A stretch of DNA of 40,656 nucleotides from a virus. Positions 6,024 through 23,025 of the stretch are shown here, piece after piece. The notes below the pieces were generated by a model. It saw only the letters and a program-made list of their open reading frames with translations. It was not told the DNA's origin and searched no databases. Location: positions 1-40,656 of IMG/VR virus record IMGVR_UViG_3300032462_000025, one strand, 5' to 3'. Positions within the stretch are counted from its first letter, which is position 1. Each line of letters begins with the position of its first letter. The translations under genes were made by a program, and so were the position numbers.

Positions 6024-8966
6024 ATTTATATAGACGCATTTTACCGCAGAGGCGGTGACGCAGAAGTAATCAGGATAGTAGAAAGAATTAATGGTAAGAG
6101 GGTATACAAAGAGTATCCACCTGATTACCATTTCTTCATGAATGATCCTCGCGGGTCGCACAAATCTATCTATGGCGATGTGGTTAAGAAAGTACAACCA
6201 CGATCCTTTGCTGAGAAGACGAAATTAGTTAAGACATTATCACATAATGTCAAACGCTGGGAATCGGACATCGATCCTATCTTCAGATGTCTGGAACACA
6301 ATTATCTCCACGCCGAAGCACCTGCTCTTAACATAGCATTCTTCGACATTGAAACAAGCTTCGATAAAAAGACAGGATGGTCTCAGGCCGGTGACGCAGA
6401 CAACTATATTACATCCATATCTATACACTTACAATGGATAGACGAAATAATATGTCTCGCAATACCGCCGGAAACTCTTACATGGGATGAAGCACAGGTT
6501 ATTGCTGACGAGGTCGGCAATGTGGTGCTATTTGGCACAGAGGGAGAAATGCTAAATGCGTTCATGGATGTTATAGAGGATGCTGATGTGTTGAGTGGAT
6601 GGAACAGCGAAGCATACGATATCCCATATGTTGTTAACAGGATTAAGAAAGTCCTTGGTAAACAAGAGACAAGAAGACTTTGTTTATGGGAACAACAGCC
6701 GAAGGTACGGGAATTCGAACGTGGCGGCAAAACGCAGCCGACATACGATTTGATTGGCCGAGTCCACGTAGATTACATGCAAATCTATAAGAAATATAAC
6801 TACGAAGAACGCCACAGCTATGCACTTAATGCAATTGCTGAAATCGAGTTAGGAGATTCCAAACTGCAATATGATGGGACACTTGACGAACTTTACAATG
6901 ACGACTTTAAGAAATTTTTAGAGTACAACATTCAGGATACCCGACTACTAGACAAACTTGATAAGAAACTGCAATTCATTGACTTGGCAAATTCAATTGC
7001 TCATTCTAGTTGTGTATTAATTCAAACAACAATGGGTGCAGTAGCTGTAACCGATCAAAACATCTTAGTAGAAGCACATGGACGTGGAATGGTATGTCCC
7101 GATAAAAAGCATTCAGCTAAGGATGACTTAGCTACCCGAGCAGCCGGCGGCTGGGTTGCAACACCTAAGAAAGGATTTCATCGTTGGATTGCTTCAACTG
7201 ACATGAAATCACTCTATCCATCTGTTATCCGTACACTGAATATGAGTCCAGAGACTATCATTGGGCAAATTAGGTTGACACGGACAAATGAAGCTATAGA
7301 ATCGTGGGAAGCAAATGGCGCCAAATACACTTTTGCTAACTGGTGGAATGATAAATTCAATGTGTTAGAAATGGACGACTTCTATAACAAGGACATAGGC
7401 ACGAAGCTAATACTTGATATGGAGGATGGATCGGAGTTCGAAGTTACTGGTCGAGAACTTAGTGACTTAATATTCGAGAGTGGTCAGCCTTGGTGCATTA
7501 GTGCAAATGGTACTATTTTTAAAACAGACGTAGACGGGGTAATCCCGTCGCTGTTAACACGCTGGTACAATGAGCGTAAAGTGCTGCAAGGCATTATGAC
7601 GAACTACCAAGACTTGGAAGATAATGCTAAGATTGTGGGTACAGCAGTTCCAGCAGATTTGTTTGATTTAAGCGATATTAGCGATGCAGAACTAAAGGCC
7701 AATTCCTATGCAAATGCTGAGTCGTATAAGCCGAAAAAACTAAAGGAATTAGTAGAAGAAGGACACAAGAAGCGTGTAGTTCAGTACATGAACCAGCATA
7801 ACTTAACAGTTAAGGATGGTAAAGCGATACACAGAGACCAGAAGGACCTAAAACGCATTGTTGGATTCTGGGACAAGAGGCAGTTGGTTAAGAAAATTAA
7901 CCTGAACAGTGCTTATGGTGCGTTGTTGAATCCTGGCAGCAGGTTCTTCGATCAGAGATTAGGTCAATCGACAACCCTGTCAGGCAGGACGATTACTAAG
8001 CACATGGCAGCTAAGACTAATGAAATGATGACTGGCGAATATGACCACTATGGAAAGTCGATTGTTTACGGAGATACTGATTCGTGTTATTTCTCTGCAT
8101 ATCCGATCCTGCGAGATGAGATTGAACGTGGCGAAGTCGTGTGGACAAAAGAAAGTATCATCGATACATATAATTCACTGGCATCAGCTGTGTCTGCTAC
8201 ATTCCCAGGATTCCTGTTAGAGAAGATGAATGTACCTATTAAGAGATCAACTGGTGTAATTGCAAGCTCGCGAGAAACTGTATCTGTGTCTGGGATATGG
8301 ATGTCTAAGAAGCGTTATGCATGTTTAATGTATGACGAGGACGGGATTAGATTGGACTCGGCTACGAAGCCAGGTAAAGTGAAAGCTATGGGGCTGGACT
8401 TAAAAAGGGCAGACACTCCCAAGTTTATCCAGGAATTCTTATCAGAGATCTTGTTAGACACGTTGACCGATAAAGGTGAGAATATAGTTATCGAGAAGAT
8501 TCGTGTATTCAAAGAAAAGTTTGAAGACATGAAACCATGGGCACAAGGCACTCCTAAGGCTGTTAATAAACTAACCCATTATCGAGACAAGATAGAGGAT
8601 GCTGGATTCAAGAAGATGAAAGGCATTGAAGTTGGTAATCTTCATGTGCCCGGGCACGTTACAGCAAGTTTGGCATGGAATCAACTAAGAGAAATTCACA
8701 GAGATCATCATGCTATGCCGATTATCGACGGACAGAAAATCATTGTGTGTAAGTTGAAGGAGACATCCGAGAATGTGCTAACAAGTATTGCAATGCCGGT
8801 GGATGAAGTTCACCTGCCGGATTGGTTTACATCCCTGCCATTTGATACTGAGATGATGATGGCTGGTATTGTGGATAAAAAAATCGAAAATCTACTAGGT
8901 GTTCTCAAGTGGGACCTTAAGGCCGCCAGTAAGGAGCACGAGATGTTCAGCAGACTTTTTGGCTAA
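6024..8966 (+). CDS. 43: Family B DNA polymerase (T4 gp43-like), apparent ATT start
   Basis: Replicative polymerase with proofreading. The first ATG (6138) would lose conserved sequence: upstream in frame is YIDAFYRRGGDAEVIRI, aligning with the T4 gp43 N-terminus, back to a TAG at 6018. AGGGGA (6012-6017) sits 6 bases before ATT 6024, the best start, giving 980 residues. Numbered from ATT: Exo I FFDIET near 108, Exo II SGWNSEAYDIPYVVNR, motif A DMKSLYPSVI near 393, motif B KKINLNSAYGALLNP, motif C YGDTDSCY near 684. It ends in MFSRLFG, like the T4 clamp-binding tail (SLDFLFG). The final 72 bases overlap the convergent HNH gene. Confidence 0.95.
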   Translation: MYIDAFYRRGGDAEVIRIVERINGKRVYKEYPPDYHFFMNDPRGSHKSIYGDVVKKVQPRSFAEKTKLVKTLSHNVKRWESDIDPIFRCLEHNYLHAEAPALNIAFFDIETSFDKKTGWSQAGDADNYITSISIHLQWIDEIICLAIPPETLTWDEAQVIADEVGNVVLFGTEGEMLNAFMDVIEDADVLSGWNSEAYDIPYVVNRIKKVLGKQETRRLCLWEQQPKVREFERGGKTQPTYDLIGRVHVDYMQIYKKYNYEERHSYALNAIAEIELGDSKLQYDGTLDELYNDDFKKFLEYNIQDTRLLDKLDKKLQFIDLANSIAHSSCVLIQTTMGAVAVTDQNILVEAHGRGMVCPDKKHSAKDDLATRAAGGWVATPKKGFHRWIASTDMKSLYPSVIRTLNMSPETIIGQIRLTRTNEAIESWEANGAKYTFANWWNDKFNVLEMDDFYNKDIGTKLILDMEDGSEFEVTGRELSDLIFESGQPWCISANGTIFKTDVDGVIPSLLTRWYNERKVLQGIMTNYQDLEDNAKIVGTAVPADLFDLSDISDAELKANSYANAESYKPKKLKELVEEGHKKRVVQYMNQHNLTVKDGKAIHRDQKDLKRIVGFWDKRQLVKKINLNSAYGALLNPGSRFFDQRLGQSTTLSGRTITKHMAAKTNEMMTGEYDHYGKSIVYGDTDSCYFSAYPILRDEIERGEVVWTKESIIDTYNSLASAVSATFPGFLLEKMNVPIKRSTGVIASSRETVSVSGIWMSKKRYACLMYDEDGIRLDSATKPGKVKAMGLDLKRADTPKFIQEFLSEILLDTLTDKGENIVIEKIRVFKEKFEDMKPWAQGTPKAVNKLTHYRDKIEDAGFKKMKGIEVGNLHVPGHVTASLAWNQLREIHRDHHAMPIIDGQKIIVCKLKETSENVLTSIAMPVDEVHLPDWFTSLPFDTEMMMAGIVDKKIENLLGVLKWDLKAASKEHEMFSRLFG

Positions 8967-9713
8967 CTTTGTGTCCTTAATCTTTTGTTTGGTTTCCTCC
9001 GAAGTGATTTTTCCTTTATGTGCTTCCCGAATTTTTTGCTTTGTTTCCTCTGATGGTTTATTGCCCTTGTTAGCTTCACTTAATTTTCTCTTATGTTCTT
9101 CGGATTTAGGTTTTCCTTTTAAAGAATCACTACGAAGTTGCTTTAATTCCGATGCTTTTTCCGGCCCATACATTTCTTCATAGGTTTTTCCTTTATTTTT
9201 TCCAATTAAAGAATCGCTGATGCTTTTTCTAGTCATATCGGTAACAATTTTACCAGTTTGACCTTTACATATATTAAGTCTATGTTCATCAGTTAATTTT
9301 CTTCCAATTGCACTATCACTTATTTTCTTTCTAGTTTCATTTGATAACGATTTTCCCTGATTTGCGATACTCAGCTTCTGTTTAGTTTCGTCAGATCTCG
9401 GGATTCCTTTCCTTGCATCGGAGAGCTGCCTTTTAATCCATTTAAACATTTTATTATTACGAACCATACCCTTACTTCCGGCATTCATGCACATTGCTGA
9501 TAATGCATAGATTAGTGATTTGTTTCCGGGATGCATTTTAACAAGCAATTGATGGGCAAGAAAATGTTCTTCGTAGGTTAATATTACTAAATTTGTTGCA
9601 TCGTCGGTCCCTCCCATACATTTTGGAAGAATATGATGTTTCTCAGTATACTCCAGTCTTGTTTTACTTTTTGATTTTTCTATTAGATTTTTATAGATTT
9701 TTTCGTAGTTCAT
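8895..9713 (-). CDS. HNH homing endonuclease with NUMOD3 repeats
   Basis: 272-residue free-standing homing endonuclease. The N-terminal HNH fold is EKHHILPKCMGGTDDATNL (about 24-42) followed by LTYEEHFLAHQLL, the usual HH..N..H arrangement. From about residue 90 come repeated NUMOD3 DNA-binding modules of the form GKxxSEETKxKIxxAxKG, at least six copies. It would cut a related phage genome lacking the gene and spread by repair. It runs convergently into the DNA polymerase, and its last 24 codons are read from the strand opposite the polymerase C-terminus. GAGG lies 6 bases before its ATG and a late box at 9730-9737. More AT-rich than its neighbours. Confidence 0.9.
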   Translation of the reverse strand: MNYEKIYKNLIEKSKSKTRLEYTEKHHILPKCMGGTDDATNLVILTYEEHFLAHQLLVKMHPGNKSLIYALSAMCMNAGSKGMVRNNKMFKWIKRQLSDARKGIPRSDETKQKLSIANQGKSLSNETRKKISDSAIGRKLTDEHRLNICKGQTGKIVTDMTRKSISDSLIGKNKGKTYEEMYGPEKASELKQLRSDSLKGKPKSEEHKRKLSEANKGNKPSEETKQKIREAHKGKITSEETKQKIKDTKLAKKSAEHLVLLTGGLKVPLENT

Positions 9714-9954: not shown

Positions 9955-10704
9955 ATGAACTTATTGGACAGCTTTAAAGACATTGTAAAACACACAAGCA
10001 GCTTGGGTTTTATAGATATTGTAAAAATCGTAGGAAGTGCTACAGACGCAAAATTGGAAGCAATTGATGCTGAAAAGACCGTTGTAGTATTTGGAAGTAT
10101 GTACCAACCAATCACAGGCATTGATACAACTGTCGGGTTGTCCAGGATTGCAGTGTTGAAGGGTTGTTTAGACTTCCCCGGATTCACTTCTGACAAGTCG
10201 TCACTTGATATAGTGACTGAACTCCGCGGAACTGCAACAGTGCCAACAGAGCTGTTGTTTAAGAGCGGTAGCGGGCACAGTGCTAACTATCGCTTTATGA
10301 GCGAAAGCATGGTAAATGATCAAGTTAAAGTTCCACCATTCAAGGGTGCCACGTGGAATGTAACTATCTCCCCAGAAAAGAAGCGTATTGCAGCTCTTTC
10401 GTACTTCCAGGGTGTATTAGGTGGATTTGAGAAACGTTTTGTCGTAAGTGTGGATGCTGGCACACTTAACTTTCACGTTGGCACGGGTCCGACAGATAGA
10501 ACAACAGTGCCATTCGCAGACAATGTTACAGGTACAATGAAACATCAGTGGTCGTGGCCACTAAGCCAGGTCCTTGGCATTTTGAAGTTGAGCGAAACAG
10601 CATCGACTACAACAATGTATTTCTCAGATATGGGTGCATTAAAGATTGATATTGACTCTGGTCTGGGGAAATACTCCTATATTCTCCCGGCCGGAAAGTC
10701 TTAA
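9955..10704 (+). CDS. 45: Sliding clamp, T4 gp45-like
   Basis: 249 residues, close to T4 gp45 (228). The gp45 topology can be followed: an N-terminal helix LLDSFKDIVKHTSSLG, strands with TVVVFGSMYQPITGI, the helix and strand SRIAVLKGCLDFPGF near 60-75, and repeated alternating hydrophobic strands ending in TTTMYFSDMGALKIDID. The clamp tethers the polymerase to DNA, and in T4 it also couples late transcription to replication. AAGGA lies 7 bases before the ATG. It stands just upstream of the TGT-like gene and about 1 kb after the polymerase, the insertion of the HNH gene apparently having separated them. Clamps diverge fast, so the call leans on context as well. Confidence 0.75.
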   Translation: MNLLDSFKDIVKHTSSLGFIDIVKIVGSATDAKLEAIDAEKTVVVFGSMYQPITGIDTTVGLSRIAVLKGCLDFPGFTSDKSSLDIVTELRGTATVPTELLFKSGSGHSANYRFMSESMVNDQVKVPPFKGATWNVTISPEKKRIAALSYFQGVLGGFEKRFVVSVDAGTLNFHVGTGPTDRTTVPFADNVTGTMKHQWSWPLSQVLGILKLSETASTTTMYFSDMGALKIDIDSGLGKYSYILPAGKS

Positions 10705-10739
10705 ATCCTAAATATGCACATACAAGAGAGCAAATAAGA

Positions 10740-12341
10740 ATGACAAAAAAGCAAGTTGATTTAGGGGCAAGACAGAAGGCAGGGAATTGGGCTGTATATC
10801 TGCCAGCAATTAGCGGATTCTATACAATTCAATTAGGCAAGATGGATGCAATTCCCGGATATGCAGGCAGACCATTGCCGGCCAAGTTCGAGAATGGGCA
10901 CGAGGGGTTAAACTTTTTGGATCCAGAGAAAGCATATTATTACTATCCCTATGGATTATTTAGTGCTGGGCATGCTCAATTAAAGTTAGATAAAGCTAAT
11001 GCAACTGATCCAATGGTGCAGACTCGTGACAGAAGTACATCTATGATTTTAGGTGACTCTGGCGGATTCCAGATTGCAACAGGTGTGTTGAAATTAGATT
11101 GGGCAACAATTAAGGGCCCAGAGGGTGATGCATTGCGTGAACAGATTTTGCGTTGGCTCGAGTATACAGCAGATTGGAGTATGACACTCGATGTTCCTGC
11201 GTTCGCAGCAGATACAAGATTTGCTAAAAAGACTGGATTGAAAAAGTTCGAGGATACCATTGACATCACGCTCCACAACTTAGAATATTTTGTTAAGAAC
11301 CGTAAGCCAGGTGCAACCAAGTTCTTGAACGTATTATCTGGTAGCACACCAGAGAACTCGAAGGTGTGGTTTGACGAAGTTATTAAGTACAGTATTCCTG
11401 CATGTGTAGAGGCCATGGGTCACAGCCCAGACAGGACGATAGAAGGCTACGCATTCGCCGGTATTAACATGAAGCACATGCCGTCTGTGTTGAATCGTTT
11501 GCTAGACTTGCGTGAGCTTGACGCACTGAAGGACAAGGACTGGATTCACTTCCTGGGCATCGGCAGATTGGACTGGGCATGCTATCTGACATCTATAATG
11601 CGTGAATTAAGAAAACACGATAATCCAAATATTGTTCTATCATTTGACGCGGCTAGTCCGTTTGTTGCAACTGCTTACGGATTAACGTATACTTACAATA
11701 GCTTCAATTCAAAGAGGTTAACATACTCGATGGATAGTGGTATAGATGATAAGAATTTGAAGGGTTCACAGATGGCAATGCCATGGCAAGGTCCAATCAT
11801 GGATAGACTTGTCACTGGCGACATGTGTGTATTGGGCCACGGCGATAAGAATAAGATGAAAAAAGAAGGCAGGACAAGCTGGGATTCGTTTACGTATGCT
11901 TTGTATATGGCGCACAACGTTTACAATCACATTGATGCTGTTCAGGAAATTAATAGATTAGCAGACGTTGAGCATGCCACACGTGATATTAAATATACTG
12001 ATTGGTCAAAGCAGAAAGGCAATTCAATCGCAAATGAAGTTAGTGAGTATGTGCCTAGTTCTATTTTATTCTTCGATGACTTTGTTGAAAAATTATTCGA
12101 CCCTGCCAACCCAGATCCTCGTGGTATGATTAAGGAATATGGAACATATTTGGAAAAAATTAGTTTTGGTGGCACTGGCAGTGAAGTTACTGTGAAGAAT
12201 GTTAGTAATTCGCTATTTGACTGGGATTCGATTAAAGTGACACAGATTGACCAGGACGAACTAGCTGATACTCGTAATGAGAAAAGTGAATTAAAAATGG
12301 TAGATTTGTTTAATTTGTTCAATGAAGAAGACAGTAACTGA
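10740..12341 (+). CDS. dpdA: TGT-like DNA 7-deazaguanine transglycosylase (DpdA family)
   Basis: 533 residues, related to tRNA-guanine transglycosylase. DSGGFQ (106-111) is the TGT substrate-binding motif; EGYAFAGINMKHMP matches the glycine-rich loop; HFLGIGRLDW followed by LSFDAASPF has the expected nucleophile Asp (D303). Phage DpdA proteins exchange guanine in DNA for a 7-deazaguanine, blocking restriction enzymes; QueE and a QueD-like protein in this window support DNA rather than tRNA as substrate. It lacks the Cys-rich zinc site at the usual TGT position. The C-terminus, MVDLFNLF (520-527), resembles a clamp-binding peptide, and the clamp gene is immediately upstream. The exact DpdA subtype is not determined. 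Confidence 0.8.
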   Translation: MTKKQVDLGARQKAGNWAVYLPAISGFYTIQLGKMDAIPGYAGRPLPAKFENGHEGLNFLDPEKAYYYYPYGLFSAGHAQLKLDKANATDPMVQTRDRSTSMILGDSGGFQIATGVLKLDWATIKGPEGDALREQILRWLEYTADWSMTLDVPAFAADTRFAKKTGLKKFEDTIDITLHNLEYFVKNRKPGATKFLNVLSGSTPENSKVWFDEVIKYSIPACVEAMGHSPDRTIEGYAFAGINMKHMPSVLNRLLDLRELDALKDKDWIHFLGIGRLDWACYLTSIMRELRKHDNPNIVLSFDAASPFVATAYGLTYTYNSFNSKRLTYSMDSGIDDKNLKGSQMAMPWQGPIMDRLVTGDMCVLGHGDKNKMKKEGRTSWDSFTYALYMAHNVYNHIDAVQEINRLADVEHATRDIKYTDWSKQKGNSIANEVSEYVPSSILFFDDFVEKLFDPANPDPRGMIKEYGTYLEKISFGGTGSEVTVKNVSNSLFDWDSIKVTQIDQDELADTRNEKSELKMVDLFNLFNEEDSN

Positions 12342-17408: not shown

Positions 17409-18488
17409 TTGCGAAATATAATTATCTTTTCATTGGAGCCGTTAGAATCGAGATATACGTGTGAATGGCATACATATCTTCCAAAATTATTAAAGGACGC
17501 GGCGGGGGATGAATTTAATATAATACAAATAGATGGCGATACAAATAGTGGAACGCCGACGCACGGTGCATTTCTGGATTTCCTATCTACGAATCAATGG
17601 AAGAACGAACAGGCAAATAAATTCTTTAACTTAGTTAAAGATGGAATAATATTAAAGGGTGATAGAATATTATTTACCGACTTTTGGAATCCCACTATAT
17701 TAGAAATAAAATATGTAAATGATCTTATGTCTATGGACTGGGAGTTACATGCATTTGTTCATGCCGGGTCATATGACAGCCAGGACTTTTTAGGCAGGCT
17801 AATAAAGGACAAAAATTGGACTTATTCCACTGAACGTGCATTATTCCATGCAATTGATCACAATTGGTTTGCAACACAGTACCATGTAGATTTATTTGTT
17901 AAATCTATAGTAGGTCACGAAAATTACTTTAAACATGCATCGACTGGGAAAATTAGTCTGACTGGTTGGCCGATGGATTATCTCCCGGATACTTTATCTA
18001 AGTATGATATTTCACAGAAAGAAGATATCATTATATTTCCACACAGGATTGCACCAGAAAAGCAACCAGAAATATTCAGAGACCTAGCAACGTCTATGCC
18101 ACAATATAAATTTGTTGTGTGCCAAGATGATAAATTATCTAAACAAGAATATCATAAATTACTTGCTAAGTCTAAAGTAGTATGGTCTGCTAACTTACAA
18201 GAAACTTTAGGTATTAGTCCATTCGAAGGTGCATTAATGGGTGCGATACCGTTATTACCCTTCAGGTTAAGCTATTTCGAAATGTATGAACCGATTTTTC
18301 TCTACCCAACAGAATGGACAGAATCATTCGAGAATTACTTAGAAAATAAAGAAGATATTATGTACAAGATTGAATATCTGATGAAAAATTATGAAGAAAT
18401 AAGGGCGTCGGTTGACAATTTAGCAGATCATTTATTAGAGAAATATTTTACAGCCACAGAGCTAATTAACAAATTATTAAGGAAATAG
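17409..18488 (+). CDS. GT-B glycosyltransferase, TTG start
   Basis: 359 residues. Two Rossmann-like halves: the N-terminal one begins IIIFSLEPLESRYTCEWH, the C-terminal one begins DIIIFPHRIAPEKQPEIF (about 205) and contains NLQETLGISPFEGALMGAIP (about 265-284), the E...G...E.AL.GAIP pattern of nucleotide-sugar binding in GT1/GT4-like enzymes. It transfers a sugar to an unknown acceptor: modified DNA base, host envelope or phage protein. TTG 17409 is chosen because a strong GGAGG (17396-17400) lies 8 bases before it. The gene downstream starts within 2 bases of its stop, so they are co-expressed. Confidence 0.85.
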   Translation: MRNIIIFSLEPLESRYTCEWHTYLPKLLKDAAGDEFNIIQIDGDTNSGTPTHGAFLDFLSTNQWKNEQANKFFNLVKDGIILKGDRILFTDFWNPTILEIKYVNDLMSMDWELHAFVHAGSYDSQDFLGRLIKDKNWTYSTERALFHAIDHNWFATQYHVDLFVKSIVGHENYFKHASTGKISLTGWPMDYLPDTLSKYDISQKEDIIIFPHRIAPEKQPEIFRDLATSMPQYKFVVCQDDKLSKQEYHKLLAKSKVVWSANLQETLGISPFEGALMGAIPLLPFRLSYFEMYEPIFLYPTEWTESFENYLENKEDIMYKIEYLMKNYEEIRASVDNLADHLLEKYFTATELINKLLRK

Positions 18489-21171: not shown

Positions 21172-23025
21172 TTGTTTGGAACTAATAAAATTATCGGTCA
21201 AAAATATTTCAAAGAGGCACCTGCGGACAGTCTCTTTGTAACAAGTATGTTCTTCACTTTGCAGGGCGAAGGGCCGTACGCCGGAATGCCTGCACTCTTC
21301 ATCCGTTTAACTAAATGTAATCTCGCATGTTCATTTTGTTTTGTACCATCGACACTTATAACAATGGGGGACAGCACTAAAAAACGTATAGACCAAGTTC
21401 GAATCGGTGATTCAGTTATGTCTTGGTCTGGTGATAAATTCGAGCCTAAAAATGTAACAAAGACATATAAATCCATTGCAGAAAATATTGTAAAGGTTTC
21501 TACTAATAGCTCACCTGTATGGTGTACACCAGAACATCCATTTTTAACATCGAATCGTGGATGGGTAAATGCAGAAAATTTATTACCAGGCGATAAGTTA
21601 GTCCATTGGGGAAATAAAGAACATAAAACACATTTTAATCCAATGTTTATTGAGAGTAACAGAGGAACAATGAGTGATGGAGAAAAAGATAAAGCAGCAA
21701 CGCGGTTGTCCAATCTTTGGAAAGATGATGATTTTAGGACTGCAAACATATCAAGAATGAAGGAGCACAATCCTATGTTTAATCCTGCAACCGCTCTTAA
21801 AGGATTCTTAACAAGAGTATCACAGATAAAATCTGGATTAGAAATAAAAATAGAAAATATTTGTAAAGATTTACCGATCACTTTCGTTGGAAATGGAGAT
21901 TTAGTTATTTCGTATAAAGTTCCAGATTTTCTCGTAAATGGTCAAAAGAAAGTTATAGAAGTTTGGGCCGATGATGCTTTATGGGTTAAAAAATCACCAA
22001 GAGGTAAAGAATGGATGGAAAAACGCAAGGCCATTTTTGCAAAAGAGGGATATGATACATTATTCCTCCCTCTTATCCAGGCAGAATTAAGAATGGACGA
22101 ACAATATAAAATTAGAGAAAAAGTAGCTGCATTTATTAATAATGGCAGAGTTGTGAAGTCTGTAGAATTTGTTAAAGATGGGAGAGGTTGGGCGAGACTA
22201 TATGGAACTAAATCTGCTGACAGAGAAGTTTATAATTTAGAAGTAGAAGACAATCATACATATCTTACTAATAATTGTGTAGTTCATAATTGTGATACTT
22301 TTTTCGATGACGGCGACTGGATGACATTCGAGGAAGTTGCTATTAAGGCTACAAATACAATTAGAAAATATTGGTTGGACCGTGATTTAGAAGTGCCCGA
22401 GTGGGTCGAATCAAAATCCAGACACTCCATTGGATCATTCCCGAAAGTAGTATTAGTAGTGACAGGCGGGGAACCACTATTGCAAAAAAATCTGATGGAC
22501 TTTTTCAATTATGGTAAACATAGAATAGATGGAGCTTTATTCGGTGAAATGCAAATTGAAAGTAATGGCACAGTTAATCAAAGTGTTCCAGAGTTTGTAA
22601 CATTGGTATGCAGTCCTAAATGTTCCGAGAAGAATGGCATTGCAACAAAATATCTTTCACCGACTGAGCTAATTCTCAAACGTGCAGATTGCCTAAAATT
22701 TGTAATGAGTTCAGATAAAGATAGTCCATATAACACAGTGCCACAGTGGGCACATGATTGGAGTAAACAAACAGGTAAATCTGTATATTGCAGTCCAATG
22801 AATATTTACAATACGTTCCCACAGAAGATTAAACTGTTGCATGCAGAAAAGGGTAACATTACGATGGATCAACGTTCTACAGTGGTGGAGGTTATTAGTT
22901 TTTGGGAACCAGACCTTCTTGACTTAGATGCCAATCAAAAAAATCACGAATATACTGCGAGGTATTGCATGGATCACGGATTTAAACTTAACTTGCAAAT
23001 GCACTTATATGCCAGCCTTGCATGA
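21172..23025 (+). CDS. queE: 7-carboxy-7-deazaguanine synthase QueE, interrupted by an intein
   Basis: QueE is the radical-SAM enzyme that makes the 7-deazaguanine ring from carboxy-tetrahydropterin. The extein gives 299 residues: FFTLQGEGPYAGMPALFIRL at the start, then the cluster motif C-NLA-C-SF-C (CxxxCxxC), later TGGEPLLQ (SAM-binding), and CLKFVMSS near the end. A 318-residue intein lies exactly before the third cluster Cys; after splicing the sequence reads NLACSF-CDTFF. Start is TTG 21172 with GGAG 7 bases upstream, confirmed by the QueE-like N-terminus. Together with dpdA it points to a 7-deazaguanine in phage DNA. No queC was seen, so 7-carboxy-7-deazaguanine could be the final base. 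Confidence 0.92.
   Translation: MFGTNKIIGQKYFKEAPADSLFVTSMFFTLQGEGPYAGMPALFIRLTKCNLACSFCFVPSTLITMGDSTKKRIDQVRIGDSVMSWSGDKFEPKNVTKTYKSIAENIVKVSTNSSPVWCTPEHPFLTSNRGWVNAENLLPGDKLVHWGNKEHKTHFNPMFIESNRGTMSDGEKDKAATRLSNLWKDDDFRTANISRMKEHNPMFNPATALKGFLTRVSQIKSGLEIKIENICKDLPITFVGNGDLVISYKVPDFLVNGQKKVIEVWADDALWVKKSPRGKEWMEKRKAIFAKEGYDTLFLPLIQAELRMDEQYKIREKVAAFINNGRVVKSVEFVKDGRGWARLYGTKSADREVYNLEVEDNHTYLTNNCVVHNCDTFFDDGDWMTFEEVAIKATNTIRKYWLDRDLEVPEWVESKSRHSIGSFPKVVLVVTGGEPLLQKNLMDFFNYGKHRIDGALFGEMQIESNGTVNQSVPEFVTLVCSPKCSEKNGIATKYLSPTELILKRADCLKFVMSSDKDSPYNTVPQWAHDWSKQTGKSVYCSPMNIYNTFPQKIKLLHAEKGNITMDQRSTVVEVISFWEPDLLDLDANQKNHEYTARYCMDHGFKLNLQMHLYASLA
21337..22290 (+). mobile_element. Intein with Vsr/PD-(D/E)XK-like nuclease domain
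   Basis: 318 residues within QueE. Splicing blocks: Cys1 in CFVPSTLI (block A), TPEH in CTPEHPFLT (block B), VYNLEVEDNHTYL (block F) and CVVHN followed by extein Cys (block G: penultimate His, terminal Asn, Cys+1). The middle lacks LAGLIDADG motifs; instead ISYKVPDFLVNGQKKVIEVW followed by KRKAIFAKEGYDTLFLPLIQAEL has the D...E-x-W and GY...L pattern of Vsr/EDxHD-type homing nucleases. All splicing residues are present, so it should splice. The nuclease lets it spread into intein-free queE genes. Confidence 0.88.

Follow-up and report, generated by a model that had tools for sequence, protein, structure and literature searches.

In phage T4, the clamp-binding motifs of the polymerase, the ligase, gp33 and gp55 occupy one hydrophobic patch of the sliding clamp gp45 (PMC7892883). 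A phage DNA modifier, T4 alpha-glucosyltransferase, also binds gp45, and its share of the modification is set mainly by expression rather than by clamp binding (PMC13216743). Dnmt1, which modifies DNA, is directed to freshly replicated DNA by binding to the clamp PCNA (PMC9690074). DpdA of phage 9g has been shown experimentally to put 7-deazaguanine in DNA, and the DNA of phage nt-1 contains dPreQ0 (PMC6884629). An earlier note on the DNA studied here proposed that a DpdA-like enzyme may ride on the sliding clamp, and its author knew of no description of such a mechanism for DpdA; in line with the latter, we found no report, in mainly open-access literature, that connects DpdA or 7-deazaguanine with a clamp.

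We analysed a window of 40,656 bases, the whole stretch of one IMG/VR virus record, which is a giant-phage fragment and kin to the Pseudomonas jumbo phage PA5oct. The window carries, in this order and on one strand, the genes for a family-B DNA polymerase (T4 gp43-like, 942 aa; 6138..8966, + strand; phrog_262 at E=2.9e-184 and Pfam DNA_pol_B), a sliding clamp of PCNA/gp45-type fold (249 aa; 9955..10704, + strand) and a TGT-like (DpdA-like) guanine transglycosylase (533 aa; 10740..12341, + strand). An HNH homing endonuclease gene with NUMOD3 motifs (8895-9713, - strand) lies between the polymerase and clamp genes, and its 3′ end extends into the last part of the polymerase gene, which runs the other way. 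As the earlier note had stated, the TGT-like gene directly follows the clamp gene, with a gap of 35 bp on the same strand. PA5oct has the identical polymerase, clamp and TGT order; compared with the window proteins, its clamp EST35_0314 has an identity of 47% and its TGT EST35_0316 one of 49.5%. Of the 84 loci with a clamp gene, every one has it next to the TGT gene.

Sequence-profile searches gave no PDB match for either the TGT-like protein or the clamp, and Pfam and PHROG profiles left the former unnamed and matched the latter only to phrog_12062, a family of unknown function. Structure prediction was therefore used. The AlphaFold model of the window TGT, built with 35 sequences, reached a mean pLDDT of 86.9 and a pTM of 0.87, and all 37 Foldseek matches in the PDB at E<=0.001 were tRNA-guanine transglycosylases (best 1.7e-6), which bears out the assignment made in the earlier note. 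The TM-score by target length was ~0.47, indicating a distant relative. Across the alignment of 35 sequences, D106, S107, G108, G109 and Q111 of the DSGGFQ catalytic motif (aa 106-111; 11055..11072, + strand), D151 and D303 were invariant. D303 lies within SFDAASPF (aa 301-308; 11640..11663, + strand) and is the putative nucleophile by analogy with tRNA TGT; the positions of D106, D151 and D303 presumably fit the catalytic sites of tRNA TGT, with roles assigned by the same analogy. The window protein is thus predicted, from model and alignment, to have the TGT fold together with the catalytic aspartates. At least 594 IMG/VR stretches encode a member of its family, and the members that were scanned gave no Pfam match and, except for one marginal hit, no PHROG match.

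The clamp fold was taken from the orthologue in a related locus (L017), which is 49% identical to the window clamp. The clamp part of that model has the two-domain fold of PCNA and matched PCNAs from 1.7e-10 (yeast PCNA), so that the identification as a clamp, also proposed from the letters alone, is upheld by fold. The gene is annotated as a clamp in PAC2 and Phosso, and profile matches and synteny in related loci agree with this assignment. A profile comparison with T4 gp45 detected no relation at the sequence level.

In the AlphaFold model, the folded TIM-barrel enzyme covers aa 1-478 and is followed by an acidic tail of 55 residues (aa 479-533; 12174..12338, + strand), predicted to be disordered with a pLDDT <50 throughout. 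The earlier note had read the end of the protein as MVDLFNLF and likened it to the clamp-binding tails of phage polymerases. However, MVDLFNLF (aa 520-527; 12297..12320, + strand) is not terminal, as NEEDSN follows it and the sequence before the stop reads ...KMVDLFNLFNEEDSN. Neither the closest relatives (L008, L009, L010 and L012) nor PA5oct has a corresponding stretch, and we therefore rejected MVDLFNLF as a conserved clamp element. The stretch that corresponds among homologues is NSLFDWD (aa 490-496; 12207..12227, + strand), 30 residues upstream of MVDLFNLF, which aligns with FNSLFDV of PA5oct and with the FxxLF[DE] of other homologues, its -3 residue being S and not F. In a preset comparison of close, clamp-neighbouring homologues, the tail was kept as NSLFDWD and not as MVDLFNLF. 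The idea of a polymerase-like clamp-binding tail on the TGT accordingly has good comparative support in NSLFDWD, as a putative motif, and fails for the one originally named.

To compare tails across the family, we used the tails of 80 IMG/VR homologues, and motif counts were made over 77 distinct tails. The tails share a short island, F-x-x-L-F-[DE], amid variable acidic sequence; the anchor residues were F in 76%, L in 82% and F in 100% (by construction, since the anchoring pattern demands this last F), and most flanking positions were variable. The pattern F..[LIMF]F[DEGSTQN] occurred within the last 75 aa of 51 of the 77 distinct TGT tails and 57 of the 76 distinct polymerases, compared with 17/732 other genes and 0/78 clamps of the same loci. 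A looser version was present in 64/77 real tails against 6.3/77 shuffled ones, and nine of the 77 tails had no recognisable motif. Among the predicted genes of the window that have an assigned family, only those of the polymerase and the TGT carry such a motif within the final 30 residues. The TGT motif usually sits ~25-36 residues before the C-terminus. In a subgroup of seven loci (L057-L059, L061, L070, L073 and L078), the internal motif is degraded (TPDFMEFEE) and the protein instead terminates in VADLFG or VDALFG, as would befit a short linear motif that can be transplanted. The TGT of Phosso still ends in EGLF, with its gene ~170 kb away from the clamp gene.

Similar ends were observed on other proteins of these loci. 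A small DNA methyltransferase (phrog_799) is encoded directly after the polymerase in four loci (L061:4576-5160, L078:3926-4501, and also L058 and L070); it ends in a clamp-like manner (FDTLFDL, FDDLFE, FNILFE), which makes it, beside the TGT, another type of DNA modifier that carries such a tail. Two proteins of ~194 aa with unnamed function end in FQNLFAYDN (L028:10558-11142) and FDNLFEPA (L071:9791-10372), and are candidate clamp clients.

The likeness to the polymerase was then considered within single genomes. As the earlier note had reported, T4 gp43 ends in KASLDFLFG and the window polymerase in EMFSRLFG; the tail MFSRLFG (8943..8963, + strand) conforms to the (hydrophobic)-x-x-L-F-G pattern of clamp binding in phages. 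The polymerase of Vibrio phage 2.275.O ends in NNTDLFDW and its TGT in NNNDLFGW, and polymerase/TGT motif pairs from single genomes include NTDLFDW/NNDLFGW, MQQFFEF/MNEFFEF and FSAMFG/FNAMFDV. The residue before the central F was identical in the two proteins at 56 of 62 loci (shuffles: mean 41.4, maximum 51). This covariation reflects just 2-3 independent switches on the tree, too few for significance; it thus agrees with the likeness of the two tails but is not conclusive, and we rejected it as a stand-alone proof. The motifs of T4 gp43, gp33, gp55 and ligase resemble that of the TGT in being short hydrophobic motifs on a linker (PMC7892883), and SLDFLFG of gp43 fits the TGT motif pattern, although the TGT motif is usually not terminal.

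We further studied whether the experimentally characterised DpdA lineage carries a comparable tail. No relation between the window TGT and DpdA1, the type of phage 9g, was detectable in profile-profile comparison (probability 0.2%), and 9g DpdA matches phrog_887, whereas the window TGT matches no PHROG. The 9g dpdA gene adjoins a beta-type clamp gene, which is followed by the polymerase gene. A further 10 phages have a 9g-like dpdA, clamp and polymerase arrangement, and the C-terminus of all 11 DpdAs is LF or close to it (QELF, MELF, QGLF, QRLF, QPGLF, LQDLFDE). Among 80 IMG/VR loci, 56 of the 61 distinct DpdA1 tails ended in L[FY], mostly as QELF, against 1/461 other genes. A beta-type clamp was recognised in 74 of the 80 loci, at no more than 700 bp downstream in 70 of them; in the remaining six loci the contig stops shortly after the dpdA gene. 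The last residues of DpdA1 have the consensus [VI]-Q-E-L-F, and Q-x(1,2)-L-[FY] was found near the end in 46/61. By sequence, this tail resembles the bacterial beta-clamp motif, whose consensus is QL(S/D)LF (PMC9690074), with the Q often one position later. In Streptococcus phage Dp-1, the phage's own DnaN is encoded 0.6 kb downstream of dpdA, and DpdA ends in QRRLF. In eight 9g-type loci (L090, L092-L096, L099 and L100), the N-terminus of the polymerase has a conserved D-[AS]-x-G-x-F-W, for example DALGLFWED, which is possibly the polymerase's own beta-clamp motif.

DpdA1 (9g, Queuovirinae and others) is therefore like the window protein in being a predicted transglycosylase encoded beside a clamp and a family-B polymerase and having a clamp-like C-terminal motif. 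The two differ in size (~310 aa versus 533) and in pairing a beta-type clamp with QELF versus a PCNA-type clamp with FxxLF.

DpdAs encoded away from a clamp gene were inspected for comparison. No such tail was found in Typha or in both Megan proteins, and DpdA2 of KVP40, CZ01 and pf16 has no conserved clamp motif. An internal LSAFFGG in KVP40 DpdA2 was considered as a clamp motif and rejected, as it is deleted in CZ01 and unconserved in pf16. The exception is phi3ST:2, where a beta-clamp gene lies ~2.5 kb away and DpdA is tailless. DpdA2 of nt-1/KVP40 type resembles the window TGT in being a large TGT-like protein with a DSGG motif, and the clamp-TGT model of L017 matches nt-1 DpdA2 (R9TGF0) by fold (E=3.4e-8). 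Unlike the window TGT, DpdA2 has no clamp gene in the surrounding 18 kb examined; the two show no significant sequence match, and neither is among the other's tblastn matches listed (30 of 70 for the second search).

The surroundings of the TGT genes were also searched for 7-deazaguanine (preQ0) pathway genes. One lies within ~6 kb in 44 of 85 TGT loci, and FolE in 40. In the window, a QueE-like radical SAM gene (7-carboxy-7-deazaguanine synthase; 21172..23025, + strand; phrog_2076; PA5oct QueE 1.4e-19) is interrupted by an intein, whose Hint and Intein_splicing domains span roughly aa 56-373. A homologue of PA5oct EST35_0317, glycosyltransferase family 4 per the PAC2 annotation, is encoded at 17409..18488 (+ strand; phmmer 4e-86). 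It is frequent beside the TGT gene (66/85 loci), and a further step of glycosylation on the modified base is conceivable. No measurement of 7-deazaguanine in the DNA of PA5oct-type phages was found in the literature.

For binding, we made use of a natural in-frame clamp-TGT read-through in L017, which was modelled as one AlphaFold chain with the intervening stop read as glycine. In this model, obtained from a shallow alignment with a monomeric clamp and without a positive control, the tail had a pLDDT of 34-42 and was not docked on the clamp, an outcome that leans weakly against binding.

Based on the above results, we consider it likely that the window TGT is a DpdA-type DNA guanine transglycosylase which a tether keeps on the sliding clamp of its own phage and which acts on new DNA. 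The flexible acidic tail would link the TIM-barrel to NSLFDWD (FxxLF[DE] in homologues), which would mimic the clamp-binding C-terminal motif of the polymerase encoded upstream. The tail would grip the clamp ring left on the new duplex behind the fork, and the tethered enzyme would exchange guanine for a 7-deazaguanine in fresh phage DNA ahead of attack by host restriction enzymes. Since the TGT tail shares the motif of the polymerase and an unrelated DpdA has a putative tail for a different kind of clamp, a coupling of base exchange to replication is probable. We infer physical binding, DNA and not tRNA as the substrate, replication coupling and protection from restriction; the substrate follows from the clamp tail and the nearby preQ0 genes, and physical binding is the least supported of these steps.

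Other readings of the tail were weighed against the same observations. MVDLFNLF itself might be the clamp-binding element of the window TGT, given that it fits M-x-x-L-F-N within the disordered tail, comes marginally closer than NSLFDWD to the strict position pattern, and has an M that some polymerases share at this place (MQQFFEF). We find this doubtful, however, as it is not C-terminal, neither PA5oct nor any close relative has it, and shuffling yields a comparably loose match in ~6.3 of 77 tails (~8%); it may be a lineage-specific second copy, or else a chance match. The conserved motif could also serve something other than the clamp, by packing on the enzyme (autoinhibition or dimerisation) or by binding some other replisome protein, for example the polymerase or the clamp loader, as the undocked tail of the L017 model might suggest. 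Yet the tail is of low confidence on the enzyme alone too, the TGT motif matches both the C-terminal motif of the same-genome polymerase and SLDFLFG of T4, and the DpdA1 tail resembles the beta-clamp consensus, with the motif found in none of 78 neighbouring clamps, so that such a role appears rather improbable.

Inherited linkage or coincidence would attribute adjacency and tails to the clustering of replication genes and the commonness of hydrophobic C-termini, and gene order within each lineage is indeed shared by descent. Nevertheless, the motif is rare in other genes of the same loci (17/732 and 1/461), persists in Phosso without adjacency, is relocated in one subgroup and recurs in two unrelated lineages, which makes this explanation very improbable. 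Finally, the tail might bind the clamp merely for placement at replication foci or for control of enzyme level, with the modification independent of the fork and its amount barely altered by tethering. In T4, alpha-glucosyltransferase binds gp45 and beta-glucosyltransferase does not, and expression mainly sets their shares (PMC13216743); likewise, DpdA2 of nt-1/KVP40 type has no conserved tail motif and nt-1 DNA still has dPreQ0 (PMC6884629). On the other side, two unrelated DpdA lineages independently retain the clamp tail and the clamp adjacency, suggesting a benefit worth keeping, and we give this reading a small but appreciable chance.

Taking clamp-coupled base exchange as the preferred reading, we lean towards the view that clamp tethering is a general and repeatedly evolved principle of phage hypermodification, used by at least two unrelated DpdA lineages and some phage DNA methyltransferases. 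If it is general, base exchange would follow the replication fork and close the window of restriction sensitivity. A clamp tail would be a simple answer to how DpdA targets replicated phage DNA and not host DNA or tRNA, it predicts DNA as the substrate for a large, unannotated family of jumbo-phage TGT-like proteins, and such tails offer a way to find further clamp clients. Compared with known systems, T4 alpha-glucosyltransferase glycosylates hydroxymethylcytosine, whereas the TGT-like enzyme would perform base exchange, and Dnmt1 serves eukaryotic maintenance methylation, again not base exchange. Clamp-bound DNA modification is therefore known in kind; what would be new is base exchange by a transglycosylase, in two unrelated lineages and with two kinds of clamp motif.
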